Of a stretch of 64,000 nt of DNA, positions 18,537-31,385 are shown in pieces (within the stretch, counting starts at the first letter, position 1; each line of letters opens with the position of its first letter). The DNA comes from Stappia indica (lineage in GTDB: Bacteria > Pseudomonadota > Alphaproteobacteria > Rhizobiales > Stappiaceae): assembly GCF_020177335.1 (NCBI RefSeq), contig NZ_JAIVMG010000017.1:1-64000 (forward strand), in the 5' to 3' direction. Under the pieces are notes generated by a model. The model ran no database searches and was not told the origin of the DNA. It saw only the letters and a list, made by a program, of their open reading frames with translations. Made by a program: the position numbers and the translations under genes.

Positions 18537-19313
18537 TCAGCGATGTTTGAAGTTCGGCTTTCTTTTCTCGCTGAATGCGTTCATGCCTTCCTGCCGGTCC
18601 TCGGTCGCGAAGGTGGCATAGAGCAAACGGCGCTCCAGATGGATACCTTCGGCCAGGTGAGTCTCGTAGGCCTTGTTGATGGCTTCCTTGGCGATCATGA
18701 CGATTGGCCGGGAGCTGCGGGCGATGCGCGCGGCCATGTCAAGCGCCGTATCGACCTGCGCCCCATCGGCAACAACGCGTGCGACCAGCCCTGCCTCCCG
18801 GGCTTCGTTGGCGGTCAGCGCCCGGCCGGTCAGGATCATGTCCATGGCAAGCGCCTTGCCGACCACCCGGGTCAGCCGCTGGGTGCCTCCGGCGCCGGGG
18901 ATGATGCCGATCATCGTTTCCGGCAGGGCAAAGCGCGCGGATTCGGCGGCAACGATGATGTCGCACATCATGGCCAGTTCGCAGCCGCCGCCAACGGCGT
19001 GGCCCGATACCGCGGCAATCGTGGGTTTTCTGGCCGAGGCGATACGCTCCCAATTGGCGGTAATGAATTGCTCGGAAAAGACGTCGATGAAGGTCTTGTC
19101 CTTGATTTCCTTGATGTCTGCGCCTGCAGCGAAGGCCTTGTCCGATCCGGTCAACACGATCGCGCCAACGTTGGTATCCGCTTCCATCGTCTCGACGGCG
19201 TGCGAAAGCTCTCGTGTCAGTTGGTCGCTCAAGGCATTCAGAGCCTCGGGGCGGTTCAGGGCGATGAGCCCAACGCCGTCTTCGACCTGGGTGAGGAGGG
19301 TGTGGTAGGTCAT
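18537..19313 (-). CDS. badK: Cyclohex-1-ene-1-carboxyl-CoA hydratase (BadK-like)
   Basis: A 258-residue crotonase-fold enzyme. The oxyanion segment AFAAGADIKE (60-69) and both catalytic glutamates, Glu112 (GGGCEL) and Glu132 (ALPET), are present with the normal 20-residue spacing, so it should be an active hydratase. Context with badH, badI, aliA and aliB, and the FITANWERI segment that recalls R. palustris BadK, support hydration of cyclohex-1-enecarboxyl-CoA to 2-hydroxycyclohexanecarboxyl-CoA. It overlaps the upstream oxidoreductase by 4 bases (ATGA) and is transcribed away from the acyl-CoA dehydrogenase gene. The frame remains open upstream, but that part is shadow. Confidence 0.82.
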   Translation of the reverse strand: MTYHTLLTQVEDGVGLIALNRPEALNALSDQLTRELSHAVETMEADTNVGAIVLTGSDKAFAAGADIKEIKDKTFIDVFSEQFITANWERIASARKPTIAAVSGHAVGGGCELAMMCDIIVAAESARFALPETMIGIIPGAGGTQRLTRVVGKALAMDMILTGRALTANEAREAGLVARVVADGAQVDTALDMAARIARSSRPIVMIAKEAINKAYETHLAEGIHLERRLLYATFATEDRQEGMNAFSEKRKPNFKHR

Positions 19314-20344
19314 GTGGCCGGCCTCGCGATGTCGATGATGATCTTGCCCAGGCGATCCGGAGCTTCGAGCCGGTCGAAGGCTGCGGGTACCTCGGTGAGC
19401 GGAAACACGGAATCGATCGGTGGAACAAAGGCGCCAGAGGCAAAGGCTTTGATCAATCGTCGGAACTCCTCGAAACTGCCCATCGTCGAGCCGTGAACCG
19501 ACAACTGCCGGACGAAGAGACGTTGGATGTCTGCGGACGGATGCGCGCCAGTGGTCGCTCCGCAGGTCACAAGATGCCCCCCGCGCGCCGCCGATCTGAG
19601 CGAGGCGGCCCAGGTTCTCTCGCCGACATTGTCGATCACGAGATCGGCGCCGTCGCCGCCGGTCAGCCTCAGTACCGTTTTCGCGACATCCTCGGTGCCG
19701 TAGTCGATAACCTCGCCCCCGAGCTGACGGAAGTGATCCAGCTTTTCCCGGCCTGATGTGGACACGATCACCCGCGCACCAGCCATCCGGGCCAGTTGCA
19801 TCGCCGCATAGGACACGCCGCCGCCGGCCCCTTGCACCAGCACGACTTGCCCAGGGCCAACGGGGGCCTTCCCGAATACCATGCGCCAGGCTGTAAGATA
19901 CGCGACCCCGAGCGCGGCGGCGCCGTGAATATCGGCGTCTTGCGGCAAGGCCATGAGCGACGTCATCGGAGCCACTATTTCTTCTGCGAAGGTGCCGTCG
20001 CGGTGTTCGCCGAAAATGCGGGCGGAGGTGCACAGCGGCTGGTCGCCGTCCAGGCAATGCCGGCATCTCCCGCAAAACTCGTAAGGGTAGAAAATGACCC
20101 GGTCGCCGGTCGACATCCCGCATCCATCGGGGGCGTCGAGAATCTCTCCGACACCGTCGACGCCCATGGTCTGCGGTAGCGTGTGCGTGATCCCCGCGCC
20201 GGACTCTCGCATGTAGAGGTCGACGCGATTCACCGATGCCGCCAGCATCCGGACCCGCGCCATGCCGGGCAAGAGCGGCGGCGGTGCGATCTGCGCGAGG
20301 ACAACGCCGGTTTTTCCGCGCGCGTTCAGGCGAATTGCTTGCAT
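19310..20344 (-). CDS. Zinc-binding MDR-family dehydrogenase/quinone reductase-like
   Basis: A 344-residue medium-chain dehydrogenase. The structural zinc lobe is intact: Cys91, Cys94, Cys97 and Cys105 (CGRCRHC...C). The N-terminal part lacks the catalytic-zinc cysteine and has VNRVDLYMR instead, as in quinone-reductase-like members. The NAD(P) fold has VQGAGGGVSYAAM near 165-177. It starts the leftward badK transcript from the operator at 20376-20393. It could be an acyl-CoA or alcohol dehydrogenase or an enoyl reductase accessory to the CHC pathway; R. palustris CHC clusters have no obvious equivalent. The substrate is unknown. Confidence 0.78.
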   Translation of the reverse strand: MQAIRLNARGKTGVVLAQIAPPPLLPGMARVRMLAASVNRVDLYMRESGAGITHTLPQTMGVDGVGEILDAPDGCGMSTGDRVIFYPYEFCGRCRHCLDGDQPLCTSARIFGEHRDGTFAEEIVAPMTSLMALPQDADIHGAAALGVAYLTAWRMVFGKAPVGPGQVVLVQGAGGGVSYAAMQLARMAGARVIVSTSGREKLDHFRQLGGEVIDYGTEDVAKTVLRLTGGDGADLVIDNVGERTWAASLRSAARGGHLVTCGATTGAHPSADIQRLFVRQLSVHGSTMGSFEEFRRLIKAFASGAFVPPIDSVFPLTEVPAAFDRLEAPDRLGKIIIDIARPAT

Positions 20345-20375
20345 GTGATCCCCTCCCAGTCATCGCCCTCAAAGG

Positions 20376-20393
20376 CAACATATTGACGTTTAT
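20376..20393. promoter_or_regulatory. BadR-like operator, copy 1
   Basis: CAACATATTGACGTTTAT lies 32 bases before the start of the MDR/badK transcript. Its exact reverse complement occurs 99 bases away at 20475-20492, and a 14/18 copy lies before the MarR gene. It is a probable binding site of the MarR-family regulator of this cluster. Confidence 0.7.
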
Positions 20394-20462
20394 GGCGTCG
20401 CTGGCCTGACAAGATCAGCTCAAGACAGGCATTTTTTCCGCTTGGTATAGCCAGGAAGGCTA

Positions 20463-20491
20463 TTGCTCAAAAAAATAAACGTCAATATGTT
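20463..20491 (+). promoter_or_regulatory. Probable sigma-70 promoter of the acyl-CoA dehydrogenase gene
   Basis: TTGCTC (20463-20468), a 17-base spacer and TATGTT (20486-20491) make a plausible promoter for the gene at 20512. The operator copy 2 covers its spacer and -10 box, so binding would block it. The start codon follows AGGAGG at 20501-20506, giving a very short leader. Confidence 0.5.
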
Positions 20492-20492
20492 G
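20475..20492. promoter_or_regulatory. BadR-like operator, copy 2
   Basis: ATAAACGTCAATATGTTG is the exact inverted copy of the 18-mer at 20376-20393. It lies 20 bases before the dehydrogenase start codon and over the likely -10 box. The pair faces outward between the divergent units, as expected for one regulator controlling both. Confidence 0.7.
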
Positions 20493-20511
20493 TCTTAAAA
20501 AGGAGGATACT

Positions 20512-21678
20512 ATGCCACTCGATCCAGATACCCGAGACCAGTTGATTGAAACCGTTGCCCGCTTTGTGGATGAGCGTCTGATCCCGCGCGAGTCAGAGGT
20601 TGCCGACAGCGACGCAATGCCGTCCGATGTTGTGCAGGAGATGCGCGAGATGGGGCTGTTCGGCCTCTCGATTCCGGAAGAGTACGGGGGGCTCGGCTTG
20701 TCGACCGAGGAGGAAGTGCTGGTCATGCTGGAGACCAGCCGTGCCGCACCGGCTTTCCGATCGTATTTTGCAACCAATGTGGGAATCGGCAGCCAGGGTA
20801 TTGCGATTGACGGGACGCCCGAGCAGAGGGCGAAGTACCTGCCACGGCTTGCGACGGGCGAGTTGATCGGCTCCTTCGCCCTGACCGAACCGGATGTCGG
20901 GTCTGATGCCAGCAACGTCAAGACAACCGCGCGGCGCGAGGGGGACGTCTATGTCCTGAATGGCACCAAGCGCTACATTACCAATGCGCCGCATGCCGGG
21001 CTGTTTACGGTCATGGCGCGCACTGATCCCGAGACACGGGGTGCGCGCGGCGTGAGCGCATTCGCGGTCGAGGCGGGGGTGCCGGGTCTGTCTCTGGGGA
21101 AGCCTGAGCGCAAGATGGGTCAGCAAGGGGCACATGTCTGCGATGTCGTCTTTGACAACTGCCAGGTTCCGGCGGATGCGGTGATCGGCGGGATTGAAGG
21201 GCAGGGGTTCAAGACGGCGATGAAGGTGCTGGACAAGGGGCGTCTCAGCATCGCGGCGGCCTGCACTGGTCTTGGCGATCGAATCCTGGGCGACATGGTC
21301 GCCTATGCTGTCGAGCGAAGGCAGTTCGGACAGGCGATTGCCGAATTTCAGCTGTTGCAGGGGATGTTCGCCGACAGCAAGGCGGATATCGAGGCGGCGC
21401 GAGCGCTGGTTCTGGATGCCGCCCGCCGCCGGGATGCCGGCGAGAATGTCTCGATGGCGGCCGCCTGCGCCAAAATGTTCGCCTCCGAAATGGTTGGGCG
21501 TGTGGCTGACCGCAACGTGCAGGTGCATGGCGGTGCGGGCTATATCAAGGATTACCAGGCCGAGCAGCTTTTCCGCGATGCCCGGTTGTATCGGATCTAC
21601 GAAGGCACGACCCAGATTCAGCAGACAATCATTGCAAGGCAGTTGGTTTCCGAGGCCCGCGAGAAGCTGGGGCTCTGA
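20512..21678 (+). CDS. Acyl-CoA dehydrogenase of the CHC cluster (BadJ-like)
   Basis: A 388-residue FAD-dependent acyl-CoA dehydrogenase. FALTEPDVGSDASN (about 122-135) is the FAD/substrate segment, RRQFGQAIAEFQLLQ the second signature, and the catalytic glutamate is in IYEGTTQIQQ near residue 367. It should desaturate an acyl-CoA at C2-C3 and pass electrons to ETF. In this cluster the likely substrate is cyclohexanecarboxyl-CoA or a ring-opened pimeloyl-CoA-type intermediate. A second dehydrogenase at 28549 is the stronger candidate for the ring reaction. It is transcribed alone towards the convergent MarR gene. Confidence 0.82.
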   Translation: MPLDPDTRDQLIETVARFVDERLIPRESEVADSDAMPSDVVQEMREMGLFGLSIPEEYGGLGLSTEEEVLVMLETSRAAPAFRSYFATNVGIGSQGIAIDGTPEQRAKYLPRLATGELIGSFALTEPDVGSDASNVKTTARREGDVYVLNGTKRYITNAPHAGLFTVMARTDPETRGARGVSAFAVEAGVPGLSLGKPERKMGQQGAHVCDVVFDNCQVPADAVIGGIEGQGFKTAMKVLDKGRLSIAAACTGLGDRILGDMVAYAVERRQFGQAIAEFQLLQGMFADSKADIEAARALVLDAARRRDAGENVSMAAACAKMFASEMVGRVADRNVQVHGGAGYIKDYQAEQLFRDARLYRIYEGTTQIQQTIIARQLVSEAREKLGL

Positions 21679-21687
21679 GGAAGCCGT

Positions 21688-21714
21688 ACCCGGGGCGGCT
21701 CAGCCGCCCTGGGT
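21688..21714. terminator. Convergent terminator hairpin over the MarR stop codon
   Basis: GGGCGGCT (21693-21700) and AGCCGCCC (21702-21709) form an 8-bp GC stem with a one-base centre, extended by ACCC/GGGT outside. It lies between the convergent dehydrogenase and MarR genes and includes the MarR stop codon. No long U-tract follows, so it may work with Rho or as a simple end structure. Confidence 0.5.
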
Positions 21715-22188
21715 GTTGTCCACGTCGTGCATGTTCTCTCGCATTCGATCAAGATAATGCAGGGCGTGTATGAGGTCGTTGTTGGACAGGTCTTTCATCG
21801 CGCCATCATAGAATCCGGCGATATCGGCCTGCATCTCTTCCCAGCGTTTCCACCCATCTGGCGTGAGCCGGATCAGGCGTGACCGGCTGTCTACCTTGCT
21901 CTTCTTTCGCTCGATCAGTCCCCGGTCCTCCATCCTTGAGAGGACGCCCGTCAGATTCTGCCGACTGACCATCAGCAGCGATGCGAGCTGGTGGACGGCA
22001 ATGCCCTCAGCCCAACGCTCGCGCACGAGTGCGCCGATGATGGCCCATTGCTGAGTGGTGACGTCGTGGGCTTCGAGTGCCTTGGTGCCCGTCTTGTTGA
22101 GCAGGTTGGCGCACTGATAGAGCCGGAATGCGAGGCGGTTCATCAGCTGCGCCCGCAAGGCGGCACTTGTGTCAATATCTTGTTTCAT
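21700..22188 (-). CDS. badR: MarR-family regulator of CHC genes (BadR-like)
   Basis: A 162-residue MarR regulator. The winged HTH spans about 50-120 (IAVHQLASLLMVSRQNLTGVL, then MEDRGLIERKKSKVDSRSRL, the wing with DxRxR). In R. palustris, BadR of this family regulates CHC/benzoate genes in response to a CHC-pathway CoA ester. This gene lies next to badH and badI homologues with three operator copies around it, so the same role is likely. The ATG at 22188 has GAAGG upstream. Longer starts are poorer. An extended -10 promoter (22249-22257) with an operator on the -35 side suggests autorepression. Confidence 0.82.
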   Translation of the reverse strand: MKQDIDTSAALRAQLMNRLAFRLYQCANLLNKTGTKALEAHDVTTQQWAIIGALVRERWAEGIAVHQLASLLMVSRQNLTGVLSRMEDRGLIERKKSKVDSRSRLIRLTPDGWKRWEEMQADIAGFYDGAMKDLSNNDLIHALHYLDRMRENMHDVDNTQGG

Positions 22189-22248
22189 ATGTTTACCTTC
22201 GCGATTTTTAGGAGAAGCGTCAAGCTTGCGCGGGTCGTTGCCGAGAAA

Positions 22249-22257
22249 ATTATAGCA
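22249..22257 (-). promoter_or_regulatory. Extended -10 promoter of the MarR gene
   Basis: Read leftward the sequence is TGCTATAAT, a perfect extended -10 element (TGnTATAAT). No good -35 box is visible; the operator copy 3 occupies that position, overlapping by two bases. Transcription should begin about 55 bases before the MarR start codon. Confidence 0.6.
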
Positions 22258-22273
22258 ATATATTGACAGATAT
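22256..22273. promoter_or_regulatory. BadR-like operator, copy 3
   Basis: CAATATATTGACAGATAT matches the other two copies at 14 of 18 positions, keeping the core TATTGAC and the ends CAA and TAT. It sits between the MarR gene and the divergent badH operon and could control both. Confidence 0.65.
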
Positions 22274-22391
22274 TTGAGCCCTGCCATACGCTTTGGGAAA
22301 TTGTGGTGCGAATCGAACGGAGCAGGTTGCGGTGGGAACCCTTGGGCGAGCCGCGGAGACTGCTGTTCGAGGCAGAGTTCAGGAGGATGGG

Positions 22392-23159
22392 GTGAGGAAC
22401 CTTAAAGGCAAAGTAGTTGTCGTAACTGGCGGGGGTGGCGGCATAGGCTCCGCGACTTGCTTCAGGTTCGCGGAAGAGGGTGCGCGCGTCGTGGTCTGCG
22501 ATATCAATGCGGAGGCCGCGCAGGCGGTCGTGGACCGTATTGTGGCAGATGGGGGGGAGGCCGCGTCGGTTTCAGCCGACCTGACCGATTTCGAGGCGAC
22601 GCAAGCCGCGGTCACGACCATCGAGGAGGAATTCGGCCCGATCGACGTTCTGGTGAACAACGCGGGCTGGGACCTGTTTACACCGTTCCTCAAGTCAGGT
22701 CCGGACTTCTGGTCGAAGATCATCGACATCAACCTGCGGTCTGTCCTGAACATCACGCATCCGGTCCTGGAACGCATGAGCGAACGTGGCGCAGGCCGCG
22801 TGGTTTCGATCGCGTCCGATGCCGCCCGCGTCGGCTCCTCCGGCGAAAGTGTCTATGCCGCCTGCAAAGCCGGGGTGATCGCGCTCTCCAAGACCTTGGC
22901 GCGTGAGCATGCTCGCAAGGGGATTACCTTCAACTGCGTGTGTCCCGGCGTGACCGAGACCGTCATGCTGGATAATTTCATGGAAGCCGCGGGCGACAAG
23001 GAGAAGCTGCGCGAGGCTTTTCGCCGGGCGGTTCCGCTGGGCCGCCTTGGCCAGCCGGACGACCTTCCCGGTGCAATCCTTTTCTTTGCCTCCGACGATG
23101 CCGCCTTCATCACCGGCCAGGTGATTTCGGTGTCCGGCGGCCTGACCATGCATGGGTGA
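22392..23159 (+). CDS. badH: 2-hydroxycyclohexanecarboxyl-CoA dehydrogenase (BadH-like)
   Basis: A 255-residue SDR whose length and sequence match BadH of R. palustris. Shared features include the N-terminal VVVTGGGGGIGSATC, NNAGWDLFTPF, IASDAARVGSSGESVYAACK (Ser/Tyr/Lys active site) and the ending GQVISVSGGLTMHG. It oxidises 2-hydroxycyclohexanecarboxyl-CoA to the 2-keto form with NAD+. A GTG start at 22392 follows a perfect AGGAGG, so the longer frame beginning at 22293 is rejected. It heads the rightward operon and overlaps or abuts badI. Confidence 0.92.
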   Translation: MRNLKGKVVVVTGGGGGIGSATCFRFAEEGARVVVCDINAEAAQAVVDRIVADGGEAASVSADLTDFEATQAAVTTIEEEFGPIDVLVNNAGWDLFTPFLKSGPDFWSKIIDINLRSVLNITHPVLERMSERGAGRVVSIASDAARVGSSGESVYAACKAGVIALSKTLAREHARKGITFNCVCPGVTETVMLDNFMEAAGDKEKLREAFRRAVPLGRLGQPDDLPGAILFFASDDAAFITGQVISVSGGLTMHG

Positions 23160-23163
23160 GACA

Positions 23164-23943
23164 ATGGCCTACGAGGACATCCTTTACGACGTCAGGGACG
23201 GTGTGGCGCACATCACCATCAACCGCGCGGACAGGTACAACGCCTTTCGCGGTCAGACCTGCGAAGAGTTGATCGACGCGTTCAACCGTGCAGGGTGGGA
23301 CAAGTCCATTGGTGTGATCGTCCTCTCGGGGGCGGGCGAAAAAGCGTTCTGCACAGGCGGCGACCAGTCGGCCCACGAAGGGCAGTATGACGGACGCGGC
23401 ACCATTGGCCTGCCCATGGAAGATCTGCATTCGATCATGCGCGATGTGCCCAAGCCGGTCATTGCCAAGGTGCAGGGCTTTGCCATCGGTGGCGGAAACG
23501 TGCTGGCCACGGTCTGCGATCTGACCATCGCGGGGGACCGCGCTCAGTTCGGCCAGGTCGGCCCGAAGGTCGGCTCGGTCGACCCTGGATACGGTACGGC
23601 GTTTCTTGCCCGCGTCGTGGGGGAGAAGAAAGCCCGAGAGATCTGGTACATGTGCCGTCGTTACTCGGCGCAGGAAGCGCTGGCGATGGGGCTCGTAAAC
23701 AAGGTCGTCCCGCACGAAGAGCTGGACGCCGAAGTGGACCGCTGGTGCGCCGAGATCATGGAAAAGTCGCCCACGGCCATCGCGCTCGCCAAGCGCAGCT
23801 TCAACATGGACACCGAGCACCAGCGCGGTATCGCCGGTCTCGGGATGCTGGGGCTCTCACTCTACTACGACACCGACGAAAGCAAGGAGGGCGGGGTCGC
23901 GTTCAAGGAAAAGCGCAAGCCCGATTTCCGCAAGTTTTCCTAA
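23164..23943 (+). CDS. badI: 2-ketocyclohexanecarboxyl-CoA hydrolase (BadI-like)
   Basis: This 259-residue crotonase-fold hydrolase opens the alicyclic ring: it adds water across 2-ketocyclohexanecarboxyl-CoA to give pimeloyl-CoA. It is related to MenB. FCTGGDQSAHEGQYDGRGT, PKPVIAKVQGFAIGGGNVL, FGQVGPKVGSVDPGYGTAFL and KARE-x-WYMC-x-RYS closely follow R. palustris BadI. An ATG at 23152 would add four residues, but MAYEDILYDVRDG fits the family start better. The end of badH is 5 bases before this start. The enzyme is the committing step of CHC degradation in this cluster. Confidence 0.92.
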   Translation: MAYEDILYDVRDGVAHITINRADRYNAFRGQTCEELIDAFNRAGWDKSIGVIVLSGAGEKAFCTGGDQSAHEGQYDGRGTIGLPMEDLHSIMRDVPKPVIAKVQGFAIGGGNVLATVCDLTIAGDRAQFGQVGPKVGSVDPGYGTAFLARVVGEKKAREIWYMCRRYSAQEALAMGLVNKVVPHEELDAEVDRWCAEIMEKSPTAIALAKRSFNMDTEHQRGIAGLGMLGLSLYYDTDESKEGGVAFKEKRKPDFRKFS

Positions 23944-23980
23944 GTCCGGCCAAAGATCAAACCCTGGGGAGGAGAATGAT

Positions 23981-25207
23981 ATGGCTACCAAGACGAGAAC
24001 TGGTGTTTCTGCGCTTGCTCTGGCAGCGGTGCTTACAAGTGCGGCTGCCGCCGAAGGCAATACGGTCAAGATCGGCTATGTGACCGGTCTGAGCGGCGCC
24101 TGCTCGAGCATCTCGGAAGACGGCTTGAATGGCACCAAGCTTGCGGTCGAAGAACTGAACGCCAAGGGGGGGATTCTCGGTCGCCAGATCGAGTTGATCG
24201 TGCGTGACAGTCAGACCAAGCCCGACGAAGGCGGCAAGCAGGCACGAGAACTGGTCGCTTCCGAAGGCGTGGATGTGCTCACGGGTGTCTGCTCGTCGTC
24301 GGTCCTTCTGGCCGTCGAGGCCGTGGCCGCCGAAGCGGGCGTTCCGCACTACGCGATCATCGGCTCGACCCAGAAGGCGAACATCGAGGCGTTCCAGCCG
24401 AACTTCTGGCAGATCCAGCCGAACGCGACCATGGAGGCTTTTGCGGCTGCGGCCTACGTTGCCAAGAAGGCCGAATGGAAGCGTATCCAGCCGATGGGCT
24501 ACGACTACGAGTGGGGCCATACCTCGGTTGAAGCCTTCACCGAGCACCTGAAGGAACTGCGTCCGGACATCGAAATCACCGATCCGATTTTCGTCAAGCT
24601 GGGCGACAACAACATGGGCCCTTACATCGCGCCCGCGCTGTCGACCAAACCTGACGCAATCTATGCGGCGATCTTTGGCGGCGGCCTGGTGAACCTGATC
24701 AAGCAGGGGCAAGGGTTCGGCCTGTTCGAGCGTTCAAACCTTGTGACATTGACGACGGTCGATGCATTGCAGTCCATGGGCAGTACGATGCCCAAGACCG
24801 GTGTGTATGGGATCGCCCGTGCGCCCTTCTTCGCATTGCCGCCATCCGAGGAGCTTCCCGGCTTCATCGAGAGCTACCGCGCTGCCTACAACGAATATCC
24901 GACCGATTGGGCAGTGAATGGCTACGACGGCATCATGATCTACGCAGCCGCAGTCGAGGCCGCCGGTTCGACGGGCATGGATGCGCTGATGCCCAAGATC
25001 TATGGCGGCACCTTTGATGGCTTGCGGGGTGCGGGGCTGACCGTGCGCGCCTTCGATGGCCAGATGAGCGCGCCTGCCTATGTCGGCGCCATTGCGTTCG
25101 GTTCGGAATTCCCGTTCCCCACCCTGACGGATGTCGACATCGTTCCTGGTGAAACCCTGATGTGGAGCGAGGACAAGATCCAGGCGCTCCGCGGCGCAGC
25201 CAACTAG
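23981..25207 (+). CDS. LIV-type ABC transporter substrate-binding protein
   Basis: A 408-residue periplasmic binding protein of the branched-chain amino acid/aromatic acid (type I) class. The signal peptide is about 24 residues (MATKTRTGVSALALAAVLTSAAA). The mature protein begins TVKIGYVTGLSGACSSI, followed by LNAKGGILGRQIELIVRDSQ, the LivK-type motif. It is the first of five ABC genes embedded in the badHI operon, so the ligand is likely CHC or a related alicyclic/aromatic acid. A GGGGAGGAG site precedes the ATG. A strong hairpin follows the gene (25214-25248). Confidence 0.88.
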   Translation: MATKTRTGVSALALAAVLTSAAAAEGNTVKIGYVTGLSGACSSISEDGLNGTKLAVEELNAKGGILGRQIELIVRDSQTKPDEGGKQARELVASEGVDVLTGVCSSSVLLAVEAVAAEAGVPHYAIIGSTQKANIEAFQPNFWQIQPNATMEAFAAAAYVAKKAEWKRIQPMGYDYEWGHTSVEAFTEHLKELRPDIEITDPIFVKLGDNNMGPYIAPALSTKPDAIYAAIFGGGLVNLIKQGQGFGLFERSNLVTLTTVDALQSMGSTMPKTGVYGIARAPFFALPPSEELPGFIESYRAAYNEYPTDWAVNGYDGIMIYAAAVEAAGSTGMDALMPKIYGGTFDGLRGAGLTVRAFDGQMSAPAYVGAIAFGSEFPFPTLTDVDIVPGETLMWSEDKIQALRGAAN

Positions 25208-25213
25208 GGAGCG

Positions 25214-25248
25214 GCGCCCCCGCCACCCTCCAAGGTTGGCGGGGGCGC
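25214..25248 (+). terminator. GC hairpin after the binding-protein gene (partial terminator/attenuator)
   Basis: GCGCCCCCGCCA (25214-25225) and TGGCGGGGGCGC (25237-25248) form a perfect 12-bp stem with an 11-base loop, 6 bases after the binding-protein stop and 9 before the permease start. With no U-tract it is more likely a processing or stabilising element that leaves more binding-protein mRNA than permease mRNA, as in many ABC operons. Confidence 0.6.
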
Positions 25249-25256
25249 AATCAGAT

Positions 25257-26129
25257 ATGATCTGGGTCCAACTTGTGAACGGGCTGATGGAGGGCATGAT
25301 GCTCTTCCTCATCGCCTCCGGTCTGACGCTGATCTTCGGCGTCTCGAGAATCGTGAACTTCGCCCATGGATCGCTTTACATGTTGGGCGCGTTCTTCACC
25401 TATGCGCTGGTGCCGTTGATCGCGCCAGGCACTGTCGGCGGTTTCTTCGCCTCTGTTCTGCTGGCCGGTCTTGGAGTTGCAGCGATCGGCTTGATCTTTG
25501 AGGTCATCGCACTGCGCCGTGTCTACGGCGCGCCGGAACTCATGCAACTGATCATCACCGTCGCGCTGGTTCTGATCATCCGCGACGTGGTGCGCTGGAT
25601 CTGGGGGCCGAACAGCTTGTCGGTTCCCATGCCCGACGCATTCATGGGGGCCCTGCTGATCGGCGACAATTACTTCCCGATCTTTCCCTTTGTGATCTTT
25701 GGTGCCGGGCTGGCGGTCATGCTGGTGATGGTTGGGGTGATACGTTTTACCCGTGCGGGCATCCTGCTACGCGCAGGGACGGACGATCGCGGCATGGCCG
25801 CTCTTCTCGGCGTCAACGAAAAGCTGATCTTCTCCTCGGTCTTCGCAGTTGGTGCGCTGCTGGCGGGCATCGCCGGCGGATTGGCGGCCCCTTATGGCGA
25901 CGTCAATTATCTGCTGGATACGACGGTGATCGTGACGGCCTTCATCGTGGTCGTGATCGGGGGGCTGGGGAACCTGTATGGGGCCTTTGCCGCGGCAATG
26001 CTCGTGGGCATCACGAAGGCCCTGGGCATCCTCTATTTCCCGCGCCTGTCCATGGTTCTGATCTTTCTCATCATGGCTGCTGTGCTTCTGGCCCGGTCGC
26101 TCGGACGCCAGGGAGGGCCTTCGCGATGA
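25257..26129 (+). CDS. LivH-type ABC permease
   Basis: A 290-residue inner-membrane permease with about eight hydrophobic segments. The family motif SGLTLIFGVSRIVNFAHGSLY near the N-terminus, and YGDVNYLLDTTVIVTAFIVV with GGLGNLYGAFAAAMLVG near the C-terminus, mark LivH. It forms the pore with the LivM-type partner encoded next, with a 4-base ATGA overlap. The ATG at 25257 was chosen over a TTG 21 bases upstream because the latter lies in the hairpin. Confidence 0.9.
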   Translation: MIWVQLVNGLMEGMMLFLIASGLTLIFGVSRIVNFAHGSLYMLGAFFTYALVPLIAPGTVGGFFASVLLAGLGVAAIGLIFEVIALRRVYGAPELMQLIITVALVLIIRDVVRWIWGPNSLSVPMPDAFMGALLIGDNYFPIFPFVIFGAGLAVMLVMVGVIRFTRAGILLRAGTDDRGMAALLGVNEKLIFSSVFAVGALLAGIAGGLAAPYGDVNYLLDTTVIVTAFIVVVIGGLGNLYGAFAAAMLVGITKALGILYFPRLSMVLIFLIMAAVLLARSLGRQGGPSR

Positions 26130-27079
26130 ACGTTCTGCCGAAAATGACACCGCTGCGCTGGGGCATCGCAGGTGCGCTCATCGTCCTGCTGGAGCTGGTC
26201 AACCGGCTTGCGGGAGTGGGGATGTCTCTGGTGCTGACCGAGATGCTGATCCTGGCGCTCTTCGCCTCGTCGCTGAACCTTCTGATGAGCTACGGCCATA
26301 TGGTCAGCTTTGGGCATGCCGCCTATTTCGGATTGGGCGCATATGGCTTCACCCTGGCGGTGGCGCGGTTCGATGTACCGGTGGAGCTGGCCGTTTTCAT
26401 CGGCCCAATCGTCGCCGGGCTTGGAGGTCTTGTGTTCGGCGCACTTTGCGTGCGCCTGACCGAGATCTACTTTGCCATGCTGACGCTGGCCTGCGCACAG
26501 ATCACCTTTACCGTTCTGTTTCAATGGTATGACTTCACCGGCGGAGATACCGGGATCACCGGTTTCATGAATCCGCGCTTCGGTCTCACCGAGCAGAACT
26601 TCATGACACTGGTTCTGGTGGTTCTGGTCCTGTGTCTTTTTGCAATGGCCTGGATCGTGAAATCTCCGCTGGGCCTGTCGATCCGCTCGGTCGGCCAGGA
26701 CCGCTGGCGAGCCGAGGCGCTCGGCCTTGCCCCGCGCCGGGTGCAATTGACGGTCTTCGTGATTGCGTCGGTCTTTGCCGGGATCGCGGGGACCCTGTTC
26801 GCGGTTTTTCAAGGCAGCGCCTTTCCCGACTACGCGGGGCTGGGCTTTACGCTCGACGCCCTGATCATGGTCGTTCTGGGGGGGCTCAACAGTTTTTGGG
26901 GCGGCCTGGTGGGGGCGGTGATCCTGGTGCAGCTTGAGCACTGGGTGCTCATGGTCACCTCTCATTGGGAATTGATGCTGGGCCTGGCCGTTCTGGTGTT
27001 GGTGCTGGTCCTGCCGCAAGGCGTGGTGTCGGTTGCCGGTCGTCTTTCAAACATGCTTGGTCTTGGGAGGAAGAAATGA
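26126..27079 (+). CDS. LivM-type ABC permease
   Basis: The 317-residue LivM partner has the characteristic LNLLMSYGHMVSFGHAAYFG and, later, the EAA-type loop GLSIRSVGQDRWRAEALGLA before VIASVFAGIAGTLFA. It has about nine membrane segments. It starts on the LivH stop and ends in the start of the ATPase gene (ATGA at 27076-27079), so all five transport genes are translationally coupled. Together with LivH it should carry the acid captured by the periplasmic protein into the cytoplasm. Confidence 0.9.
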   Translation: MNVLPKMTPLRWGIAGALIVLLELVNRLAGVGMSLVLTEMLILALFASSLNLLMSYGHMVSFGHAAYFGLGAYGFTLAVARFDVPVELAVFIGPIVAGLGGLVFGALCVRLTEIYFAMLTLACAQITFTVLFQWYDFTGGDTGITGFMNPRFGLTEQNFMTLVLVVLVLCLFAMAWIVKSPLGLSIRSVGQDRWRAEALGLAPRRVQLTVFVIASVFAGIAGTLFAVFQGSAFPDYAGLGFTLDALIMVVLGGLNSFWGGLVGAVILVQLEHWVLMVTSHWELMLGLAVLVLVLVLPQGVVSVAGRLSNMLGLGRKK

Positions 27080-27828
27080 AGGAGCACTCCCTTCTGAGCG
27101 TGCGCGGTGTCCGCAAGACTTTCGGTCAGTTTGTTGCCCTGAACAACGTCGATTTCGACCTGCCTGCGGGCGAAAAGCACGCGCTGATCGGGCCAAATGG
27201 CGCGGGCAAGTCCACTTTCATTGCGTGCATCGCCGGTCAGCTCCCCGGCGTTGAAGGCACGGTCCTGTTCAAAGGCGAGGAGGTTACCGCAGCGGCACCC
27301 GTGGACCTTGCGCGGCGGGGCATCGGCCGGACGTTCCAGATTTCCCGTGCTTTTCTTGACATGAGCGCGATGGAAAACATGACCTCCGCCTTTGTCATCG
27401 CAAATGGCGCTTGGGCCAGTCTCCGGCGCTCGGTTCTTGCCAATGCTGAGGACAGTGCGCGCTCAATGCTGGAAACCGTCGGTCTCGGCGATCATGCGGG
27501 AAGCCGAGTTGCCGATCTCAGCCTTGGCGACCGCAAGCGGCTGGAATTCGGCATGGCGCTGGCGAACGATCCGGACCTGCTGCTGCTCGATGAACCGACA
27601 GCCGGGATGTCGATCAAGGAGCGCCATCACCTGATGGACCTCGTCGCCGCACGCATTGATGAAACCGGCAAGACGCTTCTGTTCGTCGAGCATGACATCG
27701 ATGTGGTGCTCAAGATCGCGACGCGCGTGACCGTGATGGTGCGCGGCGCGGTTCTGGCCGCCGGGACGCCCGCCGAAATCGCCGAGAATGAAGAGGTTCA
27801 GGCGGTTTACCTGGGGGGGCACCACTGA
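27076..27828 (+). CDS. LivG-type ABC ATPase
   Basis: A 250-residue ATPase. Walker A is GPNGAGKST (39-47), Walker B is DLLLLDEPTAGM, and the H-loop is in LLFVEHDID. The signature is LSLGDRKRLE, a variant of the usual LSYGxQRxLE. The LivG-type insert GIGRTFQISRAF is present. The ATG at 27076 overlaps the livM stop; a longer frame from 26965 is shadow. It pairs with the LivF-type ATPase that follows with a one-base overlap. Confidence 0.9.
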   Translation: MKEHSLLSVRGVRKTFGQFVALNNVDFDLPAGEKHALIGPNGAGKSTFIACIAGQLPGVEGTVLFKGEEVTAAAPVDLARRGIGRTFQISRAFLDMSAMENMTSAFVIANGAWASLRRSVLANAEDSARSMLETVGLGDHAGSRVADLSLGDRKRLEFGMALANDPDLLLLDEPTAGMSIKERHHLMDLVAARIDETGKTLLFVEHDIDVVLKIATRVTVMVRGAVLAAGTPAEIAENEEVQAVYLGGHH

Positions 27829-28535
27829 TGCTGAGTTTGAAAGATGTCCATGCGTCTTATGGCAAGGCCGAAGCGCTGCATGGAATCGACCTTGCGATCA
27901 CCCCCGGCGAGGTGGTCTGCCTGATCGGTCGCAACGGCGTCGGCAAGTCATCGACGATGAGGTCCATTGTCCAGGACCAGATCTCTGTGCGCGGTGGTGC
28001 GGTGGAGTTCGAGGGGCAGTCGCTTGTCGGGATGCGCCCGCATGACGTCATCCGTCTGGGGGTCGGGTATGTCCCGGAAGACCGGCGTGTGTTTGCATCG
28101 CTGTCGGTTCTGGAAAACCTGAAAGTGCCGCGCCCTGTCAGGGATGTCTCCCGGCGGACCTGGTCGCTGGACCAGGTCTTTGAGCTGTTCCCTCAGCTTT
28201 ATGACTATCGCCATCGGACCGCCGGGGTGATGTCGGGTGGGGAACAGCAGATGCTCTCCATTGCCCGCTCCCTTTTGACCCAGCCCAAGTTGCTGCTGCT
28301 TGACGAGCCGCATGAAGGCCTTGCCCCCAAGGTGGCGGAGGAAGTGGTCGACGCCATCGTCGCCCTGAAAGCCGAAGGTGTGTCGATGATGATTTCGGAG
28401 CAGGCGTTGCACACGATCCGGCGCTGCGCCGACCGCGTCTACGTCGTCGATCGCGGGGTGACGGTCTGGAACGGGACCGTGGATGATTTCTACGCCAATC
28501 CGGAAATTACCCGGAAATACCTGATGGTTCAGTAA
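27828..28535 (+). CDS. LivF-type ABC ATPase
   Basis: The second ATPase has 235 residues with Walker A GRNGVGKSS, the LivF mark GVGYVPEDRRVFASLSVLEN, signature MSGGEQQML, Walker B LLLLDEPHEGLAP, and the H-loop region MMISEQALH. In the H-loop region the usual E-x-N of LivF is replaced by EQALH. Its start shares the last base of the livG stop (TGATG). It completes the transporter and is followed 13 bases later by aliB, which ties uptake and CoA activation into one operon. Confidence 0.9.
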   Translation: MLSLKDVHASYGKAEALHGIDLAITPGEVVCLIGRNGVGKSSTMRSIVQDQISVRGGAVEFEGQSLVGMRPHDVIRLGVGYVPEDRRVFASLSVLENLKVPRPVRDVSRRTWSLDQVFELFPQLYDYRHRTAGVMSGGEQQMLSIARSLLTQPKLLLLDEPHEGLAPKVAEEVVDAIVALKAEGVSMMISEQALHTIRRCADRVYVVDRGVTVWNGTVDDFYANPEITRKYLMVQ

Positions 28536-28548
28536 GAGGAGGCCTCCC

Positions 28549-29709
28549 GTGAAGCGCACGATTTTTGACTCCGAGGAACTGGACTTGATCCGGGATCTGA
28601 CCCGAAGGTTTGCGCAGGATCGCGTGGCCACCGGATATCAGCGGCGGGAAAATGCGGGCCGGATGGATATGGCGCTGGTCCGCGAAATGGGCGAACTCGG
28701 GCTCATTGCGCCTGAATTGCCCGAGGCGTTCGGCGGCATGGGAGCGGACTTTCTCTATTCCGGCGTCATCATCGAGGAAATTGCCAGGGCAGATTTTACT
28801 TTCGCCTATGTCTCGCTTCTGGCCTCGCTCACTGGCCAGATCCTGAATGCGTTTGCCCGGCCAGAGGTGGCTCGCGCCTGGCTGCCGGGGCTGACGGCGG
28901 GCGAGCATATGCTGGCCATTGCCCTGACCGAACCCAAGGGCGGGTCGGACGCGGCCAATTTGGGCCTGCGGATGGAGCGGGATGGAGACCACTACGTCAT
29001 CAACGGTGAAAAGACCTCGATCTCCGCCAATCAATGCGCCAAGGGCGTCGTTACTTTCGCCCGGACGGGAAAGCCAGAGGACGGGGCGCGGGGTGTGTCC
29101 GCCATCCTGATCCCGCTCGACCTGCCGGGGATCACGACGTCGAAATTCGCGAACATGGGCCAGAACCAGATCGGACATGGCTCCATCTGGTTCGACAACG
29201 TCCGCGTCCCGGCCGACTACCTGTTGGGCGAAGAGGGCAAGGGCTTCATCCAGGTGATGCAGGGGTTCGATTTCTCGCGCTCGCTGATCGGGCTGCAATG
29301 CCTTGGGACCGCCCGGCAGTCGTTGGACGAGACCTGGGCTTATATCGGTGAACGGCGTGCTTTCAGCAAACCGCTGGCTGCGTTTCAGGGGGTGACCCAT
29401 CAGCTTGCCGATTTCGACACCAGGGTCGAGGCGGCACGGCTTATGTCGATGAACGCGCTCTGGCTCAAGGATCGTGACCTGCCGCACACCGCTGAGGCGG
29501 CGATGACCAAATGGTGGCCGCCGCTTCTGGCCTATGAAGCGATCCACGCCTGCCTGCTGATCCATGGCCATGCCGGCTATGCCGAGGATCTGCCGTTCCA
29601 GCAGCGCCTGCGCGATGTGCTTGGCCTCCAGATCGGCGACGGCACGGCGCACATCATGAAAAACATCATCGCCCGAGAACGGGTCGGGAAGGACGCAGTG
29701 CGCGCCTGA
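28549..29709 (+). CDS. aliB: Cyclohexanecarboxyl-CoA dehydrogenase (AliB-like)
   Basis: A 386-residue acyl-CoA dehydrogenase located directly before the CHC-CoA ligase, as aliB is in R. palustris. AIALTEPKGGSDAANLG is the flavin segment. At the position where straight-chain enzymes have the catalytic glutamate (YEGT), this protein has Asp in QIGDGTAH. That difference may reflect the cyclic substrate, though it could be a shift in alignment. It should make cyclohex-1-ene-1-carboxyl-CoA, with ETF as electron acceptor. A GTG start at 28549 follows AGAGGAGG. Confidence 0.82.
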   Translation: MKRTIFDSEELDLIRDLTRRFAQDRVATGYQRRENAGRMDMALVREMGELGLIAPELPEAFGGMGADFLYSGVIIEEIARADFTFAYVSLLASLTGQILNAFARPEVARAWLPGLTAGEHMLAIALTEPKGGSDAANLGLRMERDGDHYVINGEKTSISANQCAKGVVTFARTGKPEDGARGVSAILIPLDLPGITTSKFANMGQNQIGHGSIWFDNVRVPADYLLGEEGKGFIQVMQGFDFSRSLIGLQCLGTARQSLDETWAYIGERRAFSKPLAAFQGVTHQLADFDTRVEAARLMSMNALWLKDRDLPHTAEAAMTKWWPPLLAYEAIHACLLIHGHAGYAEDLPFQQRLRDVLGLQIGDGTAHIMKNIIARERVGKDAVRA

Positions 29710-29741
29710 GGCGTCTGCTGCAGCTGGGAGGAGGAACCACC

Positions 29742-31385
29742 ATGGAATTCGATGCTGTTCTGATCGAGCCCCGCCGTGTTCAGTTGGAAGCGGATGGCTT
29801 TTGGCCAGGCAAGACGGTGGAGGGCTGTTTCGATGCGTGCCTCGCAAGGTCTCCCGATGACCTGGCGGTGACGTCCGTCAGTGTGACAGAGGGAACTCGG
29901 CGGGACCTGACTTGGGCAGAGCTCGATCTGGCCGCGGATCGGGTTGCGGTTGGCCTGCGCAAGTTGGGCGTGGGGCGCAAGGACGTCGTCACCTGCCAAC
30001 TGCCCAACGGCTGGCAATTCGTTGCCCTCTACCTGGGGTGCTCGCGCATTGGCGCCGTGTTCAACCCGGTGATGCATATCTTCCGCGAGCGCGAATTGTC
30101 CTTCATGCTGGCGCATGGCGAAGCCAAGGTCTTCGTCGTCCCGAAGCTGTTCAACAAGTTCGACCATGAGAGGATGGCCGAAGGCTTGAAACCCGATCTG
30201 CCGCATCTGGAGCATATCGTGGTTCTGGGCGGCGGAGGCAGCAACAGCTTCGAGGCGCTTCTGGGAAACCCCGATTTCGATTCGGAACGGGACAGCATCG
30301 GGCGAGAGGCCTGCCTGGGGCCGAACGAGGTCGTCGAATTGATCTATACCTCCGGAACGACGGGCGAACCCAAGGGGGTCATGCATACGCCCAACACGAT
30401 CCTGTCCAATCTCGTGCCCTTGTCCGAACGCCTGAGAATGGGACGTGCTGATGTGCTTCTGATGGCCTCGCCGATGGCGCATCAGACCGGCTTTGCCTAT
30501 GGCCTGATCCTGCCGGTCATGCTTGGCGCTCGCATGGTTCTGATGGACAAGTGGGACAAGGGTGTCGCTGCCAATCTGGTCGAAAAGGAGGGTGTCACCT
30601 GGACCATGGCCTCGACGCCGTTCCTGATCGACCTGACCAATGCGGTGGAGGAGGGCGGTGCCGATTCAGCGTCGCTGCGCATCTTCTTGTGCGCGGGCAC
30701 GGTGATCCCCGGGCCGGTGGTGGAGCGTGCGCAAAACGTGTTGGGCGCGCGTGTGATTTCTGCCTGGGGCATGACAGAGAACGGGGCCGTCACGACGGTC
30801 AGGCTCGAGGATCCCGACGATCAGTCGGCCATCTCCGATGGTTGCCCGTTGCCGGGGGTCGAAATTCAGATTCGCGATGCGGAGGGCAAACCTGTGGGAG
30901 CGGATGTGGAAGGGGACATCTTTCTCCGCGCCTGCTCCATCTTTGGCGGCTATCTCAAGCGGCCGCATCTGAACGCCATGGATGAAGACCATTGGTTCGA
31001 AACAGGCGATCGGGGCCGTGTCGATGCAAAGGGCTATGTCAGGATCACCGGCCGCTCAAAGGACATCATCATTCGGGGCGCCGAGAATATCCCGGTCGTC
31101 GAGGTCGAGGCGGAGCTTTATAAACACCCGGCTGTCGCGACCGTTGCAGTCGTCGGTGCTCCGGACGAACGGCTCGGCGAACGCGCCTGCGCCTTTGTCA
31201 TCCCGAAGTCGGGACAATCGCTCGGCTTCGAAGAGATGCAGGAATTTCTGCAGGATCGCGGTCTGACCAAGCTCTACTGGCCCGAACGGCTGGAACTGCG
31301 CGACGCGCTGCCGATGACGGCGTCGGGCAAGATCCAGAAATTCGCGCTGCGCGGTGAACTCCGCAAGGAAGCGGGGCTGGAATGA
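29742..31385 (+). CDS. aliA: Cyclohexanecarboxylate-CoA ligase (AliA-like)
   Basis: A 547-residue ANL-family ligase. It activates an acid with ATP to the acyl-AMP and then to the CoA ester. The P-loop IYTSGTTGEPKGVMHT lies near residue 202-217, ISAWGMTENGA follows, and the hinge/catalytic segment GDRGRVDAKGYVRITGRSKD and Lys in MTASGKIQKF are at the C-terminus. With aliB, badK, badH and badI in the cluster, CHC is the best substrate. A strong GGGAGGAGG site precedes it. It could also act on related alicyclic acids. The 283 bases after it hold no recognisable gene. Confidence 0.85.
   Translation: MEFDAVLIEPRRVQLEADGFWPGKTVEGCFDACLARSPDDLAVTSVSVTEGTRRDLTWAELDLAADRVAVGLRKLGVGRKDVVTCQLPNGWQFVALYLGCSRIGAVFNPVMHIFRERELSFMLAHGEAKVFVVPKLFNKFDHERMAEGLKPDLPHLEHIVVLGGGGSNSFEALLGNPDFDSERDSIGREACLGPNEVVELIYTSGTTGEPKGVMHTPNTILSNLVPLSERLRMGRADVLLMASPMAHQTGFAYGLILPVMLGARMVLMDKWDKGVAANLVEKEGVTWTMASTPFLIDLTNAVEEGGADSASLRIFLCAGTVIPGPVVERAQNVLGARVISAWGMTENGAVTTVRLEDPDDQSAISDGCPLPGVEIQIRDAEGKPVGADVEGDIFLRACSIFGGYLKRPHLNAMDEDHWFETGDRGRVDAKGYVRITGRSKDIIIRGAENIPVVEVEAELYKHPAVATVAVVGAPDERLGERACAFVIPKSGQSLGFEEMQEFLQDRGLTKLYWPERLELRDALPMTASGKIQKFALRGELRKEAGLE

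Follow-up and report, generated by a model that had tools for sequence, protein, structure and literature searches.

Predicted BadR operators around a cyclohexane-carboxylate gene cluster of Stappia indica, including a candidate operator within badH

A gene cluster for cyclohexane carboxylate (bad-ali) is found in a 64,000 nt stretch of the Stappia indica contig NZ_JAIVMG010000017.1 (positions 1 to 64,000, referred to as the window), and contains a MarR-type regulator gene surrounded by copies of a palindromic element that are described here as predicted operators. The closest described systems are those of the repressor BadR. Its operators are CAATacATTG in Rhodopseudomonas palustris and CAATgtATTG in Aromatoleum, with the consensus CAAN4TTG, and in Aromatoleum binding is lost when either of the first two bases of the repeat is altered (PMC9795900). 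According to the same account, badR of Aromatoleum lies antisense within its operon, both divergent promoters there bear an operator, and BadR repression is relieved by coenzyme A (CoA) thioesters, namely cyclohexanecarboxyl-CoA (CHC-CoA) in Aromatoleum and 2-ketocyclohexanecarboxyl-CoA in R. palustris (PMC9795900). Repressor behaviour is described for the BadR of Cupriavidus necator (PH16_RS27200) within a system that is inducible by cyclohexanecarboxylate (PMC7057948).

The order of genes in the window is badK-mdr (reverse strand), acd (forward), badR (reverse), then badH, badI, an ABC transporter, aliB and aliA (forward). As described for Aromatoleum sp. CIB (PMC9795900), a MarR repressor is combined with a CAAN4TTG core, badR is placed in antisense orientation with an acyl-CoA dehydrogenase gene on one side and badHI on the other, and each of the divergent promoters has an operator. 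However, the genes at the divergent promoters are acd and mdr-badK rather than aliB and aliA-badK, aliBA is downstream of the ABC transporter, further predicted sites lie over the badR start and within badH, and the conserved element is 24 bp long and in relatives often includes CAAN4TTT. R. palustris shares a MarR repressor divergent from badH, the operator CAATacATTG at the badH promoter and a CoA-thioester effector, but has a single badHI-aliBA-badK operon, and an intragenic site goes unmentioned in the account of it given in PMC9795900. The likeness to C. necator is that of a repressor of a cyclohexanecarboxylate-inducible promoter (PMC7057948). In three other Cupriavidus records (L132, L136 and L142) BadR is 47-49% identical to that of the window, and each has a site like O3 below.

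Five places in the window are predicted operators or operator-like. No strand is assigned to any of them, and the scores are those of the leave-window-out position weight matrix (PWM) described below.

O1, 20369..20392, upstream of mdr-badK; holds 17 of the 18 bases of the forward 18-mer; PWM score 25.2, rank 3; genome match of model R2.
O2, 20476..20499, upstream of acd; holds 17 of the 18 bases of the reverse 18-mer; PWM score 34.5, rank 1; best genome match of model R2.
O3, 22249..22272, common to the divergent badR and badH promoters; PWM score 31.5, rank 2.
O4, 22166..22189, spanning the start codon and codons 2-8 of badR; PWM score 21.0, rank 4; genome match of model R2 with an E value of 8.48.
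O5, 22403..22426, operator-like, in badH codons 4-12; PWM score 13.9, rank 5.

The cores of O1 and O2 (CAACATATTG), O3 (CAATATATTG) and O4 (CAAGATATTG) all conform to CAAN4TTG, and that of O5 (CAACTACTTT) does not. O1, O2 and O3 are very probably operators of the adjacent MarR-type repressor, a predicted BadR ortholog. Since the cores of these three copies fit the published BadR operator, the locus essentially adds one more case to a type of regulation already described. To this type the sequences add two refinements, a 24-bp operator model and a candidate intragenic operator.

The 24-bp model comes from a sample of 80 named relatives that were annotated with the proteins of the window. The divergent badR-badH layout was found in 69 of the 80 and a divergent acd-mdr region in 17, and with the two regions of the window these gave 70 and 18 regions, respectively. 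CAAN4TTG is present in 24 of the 70 badR-badH regions (mean 2.5 and largest 7 in 200 shuffles) and in 5 of the 18 acd-mdr regions (shuffle mean 0.89, largest 5). A fitted 24-bp profile detects a site in all 70 badR-badH regions, with a lowest score of 15.2, and two sites in 17 of the 18 acd-mdr regions, the best of 440 mononucleotide shuffles scoring 13.35. A second site is present in 16 of the 17 relatives with an acd-mdr region, and three of these second sites (L069, L090 and L092) score below the best shuffle. The predicted operator is thus modelled as a 24-bp palindrome, approximately TTTAYGTMAATA followed directly by TATTKACRTAAA, with a half-site of about TTTAYGTMAATA.

This profile was fitted to the same regions that it scored, and the fair tests are therefore models built without the sites of the window, a leave-window-out PWM from 102 non-window sites and model R2. 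Over the 64 kb, the leave-window-out PWM places O2, O3, O1, O4 and O5 at ranks 1 to 5, all within 2.1 kb, and the sixth-best place scores 9.3. Across the genome (4.66 Mb), model R2 has six matches up to E=10, all at O1-O4. The 24-bp operator model supersedes the 10-bp consensus, and its genome matches (E≤10) are confined to the bad-ali cluster.

A preliminary description of the window had taken an 18-mer as the operator unit, and much of what it observed is confirmed. The two exact inverted copies lie at 20376-20393 (forward) and 20475-20492 (reverse), 99 bp apart start to start, and matches with up to 3 mismatches number 2 in the window, against a shuffle mean of 0.01 and with two or more reached in 0 of 100 shuffles. 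The copy matching at 14 of 18 positions between badR and badH is present at 22256-22273 (forward), with mismatches at positions 4, 13, 14 and 15. The proposal that each divergent unit has its own site and that the regulator gene has another is supported, with operators recurring in the matching regions of relatives, and the model of a BadR-like MarR protein holds as far as the MarR gene beside bad-ali genes and the CAAN4TTG cores in all three copies are concerned. The unit itself has to be redrawn, as the 18-mer is an off-centre part of the 24-bp palindrome, running from position -5 to +13. A 12/18 copy across the badR start codon (22165-22182, reverse) and the weaker site inside badH (22403-22426) had been overlooked, and the count of three sites becomes at least four, probably five.

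The exactness of the repeat does not provide the clean regulon definition that had been expected of it. The longest exact run common to both acd/mdr sites is 17 inside the 24-mers of the window and 4-19 in 17 relatives, one of which (L098, with 19) exceeds the window. Because that relative shares a longer run, the exact duplicate was rejected as a sign of recent copying; it falls within the range of what appears to be a constrained operator family, and exactness is not diagnostic. A genome check for many unrelated copies of the 18-mer, run at up to 3 mismatches, returned both copies and one off-cluster match, with 3 mismatches and on another contig, while the reversed-pattern control gave 0 matches. 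The looser pattern CAANATATTGACNNNTAT with up to 2 mismatches matched 8 places in the genome, 4 of them in the bad-ali cluster, and its reversed-pattern control matched 2. The motif had also been offered as a means to find further regulon members, and none was found elsewhere in the 4.66-Mb genome with either of the 24-bp models, R1 or R2, at E≤10; of the first-look candidates, 150 of 211 and 150 of 215 were scored, which leaves room for a weak distant site to have escaped. Eight off-cluster places matching short patterns were rejected because of their low 24-bp PWM scores (-14.8 to 11.0) and the absence of any R1 or R2 match up to E=10.

On another contig, around 1501-1510 of L009 (G000:C1:19251), a long inverted repeat was observed that consists of ATGTCAAC, five bases and GTTGACAT. 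It scores 9.8 with the BadR profile, and therefore is perhaps the operator of another regulator.

Hexamers read by eye place promoter elements inside O3. It contains an extended -10 element for badR, TGCTATAAT, at 22257-22249 (reverse) that includes TATAAT, and a TTGACA for badH at 22263-22268 (forward). Without substrate, a BadR dimer bound to O3 would cover the -10 of badR and the -35 of badH, so that badR and the badHI-ABC-aliBA operon would both be shut off. O1 and O2 would shut off mdr-badK and acd. O5, and O4 where present, might strengthen repression as downstream roadblocks, or by binding BadR cooperatively with O3 or in a loop. BadR would be released by a pathway CoA thioester, CHC-CoA or 2-ketocyclohexanecarboxyl-CoA, and CHC-CoA may act in place of the latter or in addition to it. 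The predicted regulon would be the bad-ali cluster alone.

O5 overlaps the badH codons for K-G-K-V-V-V-V-T, and in most alphaproteobacterial badH genes examined the codons AAA-GTN-GTT-GTC-GTA spell an operator half-site. The alphaproteobacterial-type set was chosen by record title and rank (L067-L104, L108, L110, L112 and L113); it includes L088, a metagenome-assembled genome (MAG) labelled Colwellia, and L102 (Giesbergeria, no badH), and excludes L107. In this set the last three valines are encoded by GTT in 33, GTC in 32 and GTA or ATA in 31 of 36 genes, and the lysine by AAA in 33 of 36. Over the rest of these badH genes, GTA and GTT account for 14 and 72 of 840 valine codons. The codon table omits 10 of the 70 genes, 4 alphaproteobacterial-type and 6 others, in which the regular expression for the motif had no match, and some of these re-enter the later O5 tests. 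A count by eye gives 29 of 40 loci with an intact GTTAYGACAAC half-site. Only 4 of the 931 fourfold degenerate columns in seven genes have an A/T majority; the two strong ones are both in O5, at badH codons 9 (GTT, 0.90) and 11 (GTA, 0.86), and two weak ones (0.33 and 0.41) are elsewhere. For 39 badH genes the mean operator score is 8.9, compared with -12.2 after recoding with own codon usage, -5.1 with uniform usage and -1.0 when the same codons are permuted. Recoding gives p<0.01 for 33 of the 39 genes with own usage and 23 with uniform usage.

The best O5 score of the 40 loci is that of L088, a contig labelled as a Colwellia MAG that carries the badR-badH cluster, with a badH GC content at third codon positions (GC3) of 0.24.

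O5 was not detected in 15 distinct short-chain dehydrogenase/reductase (SDR) motifs from other genes (scores at most -2.4), in 23 badH loci with no badR match (at most 6.2) or in 14 motif-bearing loci with a divergent BadR of ≤51% identity (at most 1.9). BadR identity is no clean divider, as L113, with a BadR of 51%, has an O5 score of 17.8. Within the set from which these badH loci were taken, four loci had no badH match (L060, L061, L062 and L066) and three had no motif (L064, L065 and L159). L179 has a BadR-like match 1.3 kb away and no O5. The O5 codon pattern is also missing from 24 other badH genes, which are mostly betaproteobacterial by label and include the three Cupriavidus records. 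Further loci were drawn from 6 of 11 plasmid records (H1, H2, H4, H5, H6 and H7). In the held-out alphaproteobacterial loci L021, L023, L183, L184 and L185, which were not used for the profile, O5 scores 21.1, 15.7, 9.6, 17.0 and 11.9, and ranks third or fourth among the places scored. Of these loci, L185 closely resembles L092; L022, which looks to be the same record as L081, and L050, with scores and codons equal to those of L091, are not counted as further evidence.

The comparative evidence for a putative intragenic operator preserved via synonymous codons is good. We lean slightly towards the interpretation that BadR of this alphaproteobacterial clade uses a second operator in the badH coding sequence, for which the synonymous codons of K-V-V-V-V-T are held as AAA-GTN-GTT-GTC-GTA, and that this operator, combined with O3 and, in certain species, with a third site covering the badR start codon, forms a multi-site repression complex or a loop over the start of the operon. 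The experimentally found operators lac O2 and gal OI are auxiliary sites situated within a structural gene of the operon that is repressed. O5 resembles these in placement, but the repressor families differ and O5 is known from conservation only. Short lists of titles and abstract openings from open-access papers revealed no intragenic MarR operator and no BadR site in badH. If the interpretation is true, one stretch of DNA would carry a repressor site, visible only in synonymous codons, on top of the protein motif conserved there, and if it were confirmed, the roles of this DNA as operator and as enzyme gene could be told apart cleanly by recoding badH.

Alternatively, O5 may not be an operator, the conserved codons reflecting an A/T-rich codon ramp at the start of the gene, low mRNA structure or another translation signal. 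This is possible, with a clearly smaller chance of being correct than an intragenic operator. O5 is within the first 12 codons of badH, genes in general tend towards A/T-ending codons close to their starts, and O5 scores ≤8 in 14 of 40 loci, including Roseibium (L081). A/T richness accounts for part of the O5 score, because uniform recoding raises the mean of the recoded genes to -5.1. However, the six other cluster genes have no strongly conserved A/T-ending fourfold column, only the two weak ones, and the order GTT-GTC-GTA is specific, with the G/C-ending GTC in the middle in 32 of 36 genes. The same order persists in L088 despite the low GC3 of the gene, and the SDR motifs of other genes, as given above, do not approach an operator score.

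Several results weigh against operators at O5 and O4 and against the wider scheme, as do the 14 loci with low O5 scores. Permutation of the same codons gives p<0.05 in only 14 of 39 genes. The O5 score in the window (13.9, or 13.7 with the full profile) compares with 13.0 for the highest of 20 simulated 64-kb sequences, and model R2 gives O5 6.2 bits and an E value of 1.7 in the window alone, O5 being absent from the genome-wide R2 matches up to E=10. L107, labelled Alphaproteobacteria, lacks the O5 codons. Among the other plasmid loci, L188 (Paraburkholderia) has an O3-like site and no O5, L186 has one site and no badH-like motif, and L187 has no site above 8. The O5 core CAACTACTTT departs from CAAN4TTG, and alteration of either of the first two repeat bases is enough to prevent binding in Aromatoleum (PMC9795900), a mismatch tempered by the finding of exact CAAN4TTG in just 23 of the 102 sites of relatives. 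O4 is restricted to 9 of 44 loci, where it scores >10 at the badR start in an identical position in all nine. The distance from O1 to O2 is 106-108 bp in 9 of 16 retained regions, that from O3 to O5 is 151-188 bp in the 26 retained loci, and the mean resultant lengths for helical phasing are 0.41-0.65 over loci that are not independent. A strict sigma-70 scan of 20330-22450 found 0 promoters (shuffle mean 0.8), and the promoter assignments therefore rest on the hexamers read by eye; the extended -10 of the MarR gene that the preliminary description had placed at the 14/18 copy is present as a hexamer and is not recovered by the scan. The badH relative is under its NCBIfam cut-off (380.7 against 431.2 bits).

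The extent of the operator was considered separately. BadR might recognise only the short 10-bp CAAN4TTG, with the outer bases of the 18-mer belonging to promoter elements, in line with gel shifts in Aromatoleum that defined CAATnnATTG with the first two bases of each arm as the essential ones (PMC9795900). This is improbable, as the outer footprint positions -10, -9, -7 and +7 hold 1.30-1.64 bits, close to the values of the strongest core positions (1.38-1.83 bits), the palindromic flanks recur at sites that differ in their distance from the genes, and AAN4TT is present in 96 of the 102 sites, against the 23 with the full consensus. There is very little likelihood that a regulator other than the adjacent MarR protein binds the repeats, for while the pairing of regulator and site is drawn from linkage and the published core, a site is present in 70 of 70 badR-badH regions, the best upstream score in the 23 badH loci with no badR match is 5.9, and the cores equal the published BadR operator (PMC9795900).

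The assignment of the regulator as a putative BadR ortholog, a MarR-type repressor of the cyclohexane-carboxylate (bad-ali) genes, appears largely right. It is a MarR-family winged-helix protein with PF12802 and PF01047 above their cut-offs, and an identity as HpaR was not supported, with 65.6 bits against the TIGR02337 cut-off of 121.2. The gene is linked to bad-ali genes, of which badI and aliB are above their NCBIfam cut-offs and aliA equals its own. The predicted genes are as follows.

badK-like, 18537..19313, reverse strand, enoyl-CoA hydratase; PF00378; best NCBIfam enoyl-CoA hydratase model 379.5, just under the cut-off of 396.
mdr, 19310..20344, reverse strand, zinc-type dehydrogenase/reductase; PF00107 and PF08240.
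acd, 20512..21678, forward strand, acyl-CoA dehydrogenase; PF00441, PF02771 and PF02770; no listed NCBIfam model at cut-off.
badR, 21700..22188, reverse strand, MarR-family regulator of 162 aa; PF12802 43.7 bits (cut-off 27) and PF01047 39.4 (cut-off 24.6).
badH-like, 22392..23159, forward strand, 2-hydroxycyclohexanecarboxyl-CoA dehydrogenase; start taken as GTG; best match TIGR03206, 380.7 bits (cut-off 431.2).
badI, 23152..23943, forward strand, 2-ketocyclohexanecarboxyl-CoA hydrolase; TIGR03210 498.8 bits (cut-off 467.6).
Substrate-binding protein and branched-chain-type ABC transporter genes, 23981..28535, forward strand, between badI and aliB; PF13458 for the binding protein, permease and ATPase from open reading frames and order.
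aliB, 28549..29709, forward strand, cyclohexanecarboxyl-CoA dehydrogenase; TIGR03207 581.5 bits (cut-off 575.35).
aliA, 29742..31385, forward strand, cyclohexanecarboxylate-CoA ligase; TIGR03208 792.3 bits, equal to the cut-off of 792.3.

A close BadR is present in 3 of 86 other genomes of the family (58-72% identity), the rest having ≤38% among the matches listed, and in none of the 13 that share its genus. The named relatives nearest to it have names of Rhodobacterales type, the first being a Roseovarius MAG (78%). The rarity of a close BadR in the family and the Rhodobacterales-type nearest relatives suggest that the cluster (18537-31385) was acquired by horizontal transfer.

The binding protein of the ABC transporter was found in at least 11 of the 80 relative loci, and in Salipiger abyssi (L184) TRAP transporter genes are near the cluster in place of the ABC transporter. 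In 17 of the 80 relatives a zinc-type MDR gene stands beside a second acyl-CoA dehydrogenase gene, in divergent orientation and with the predicted operators.

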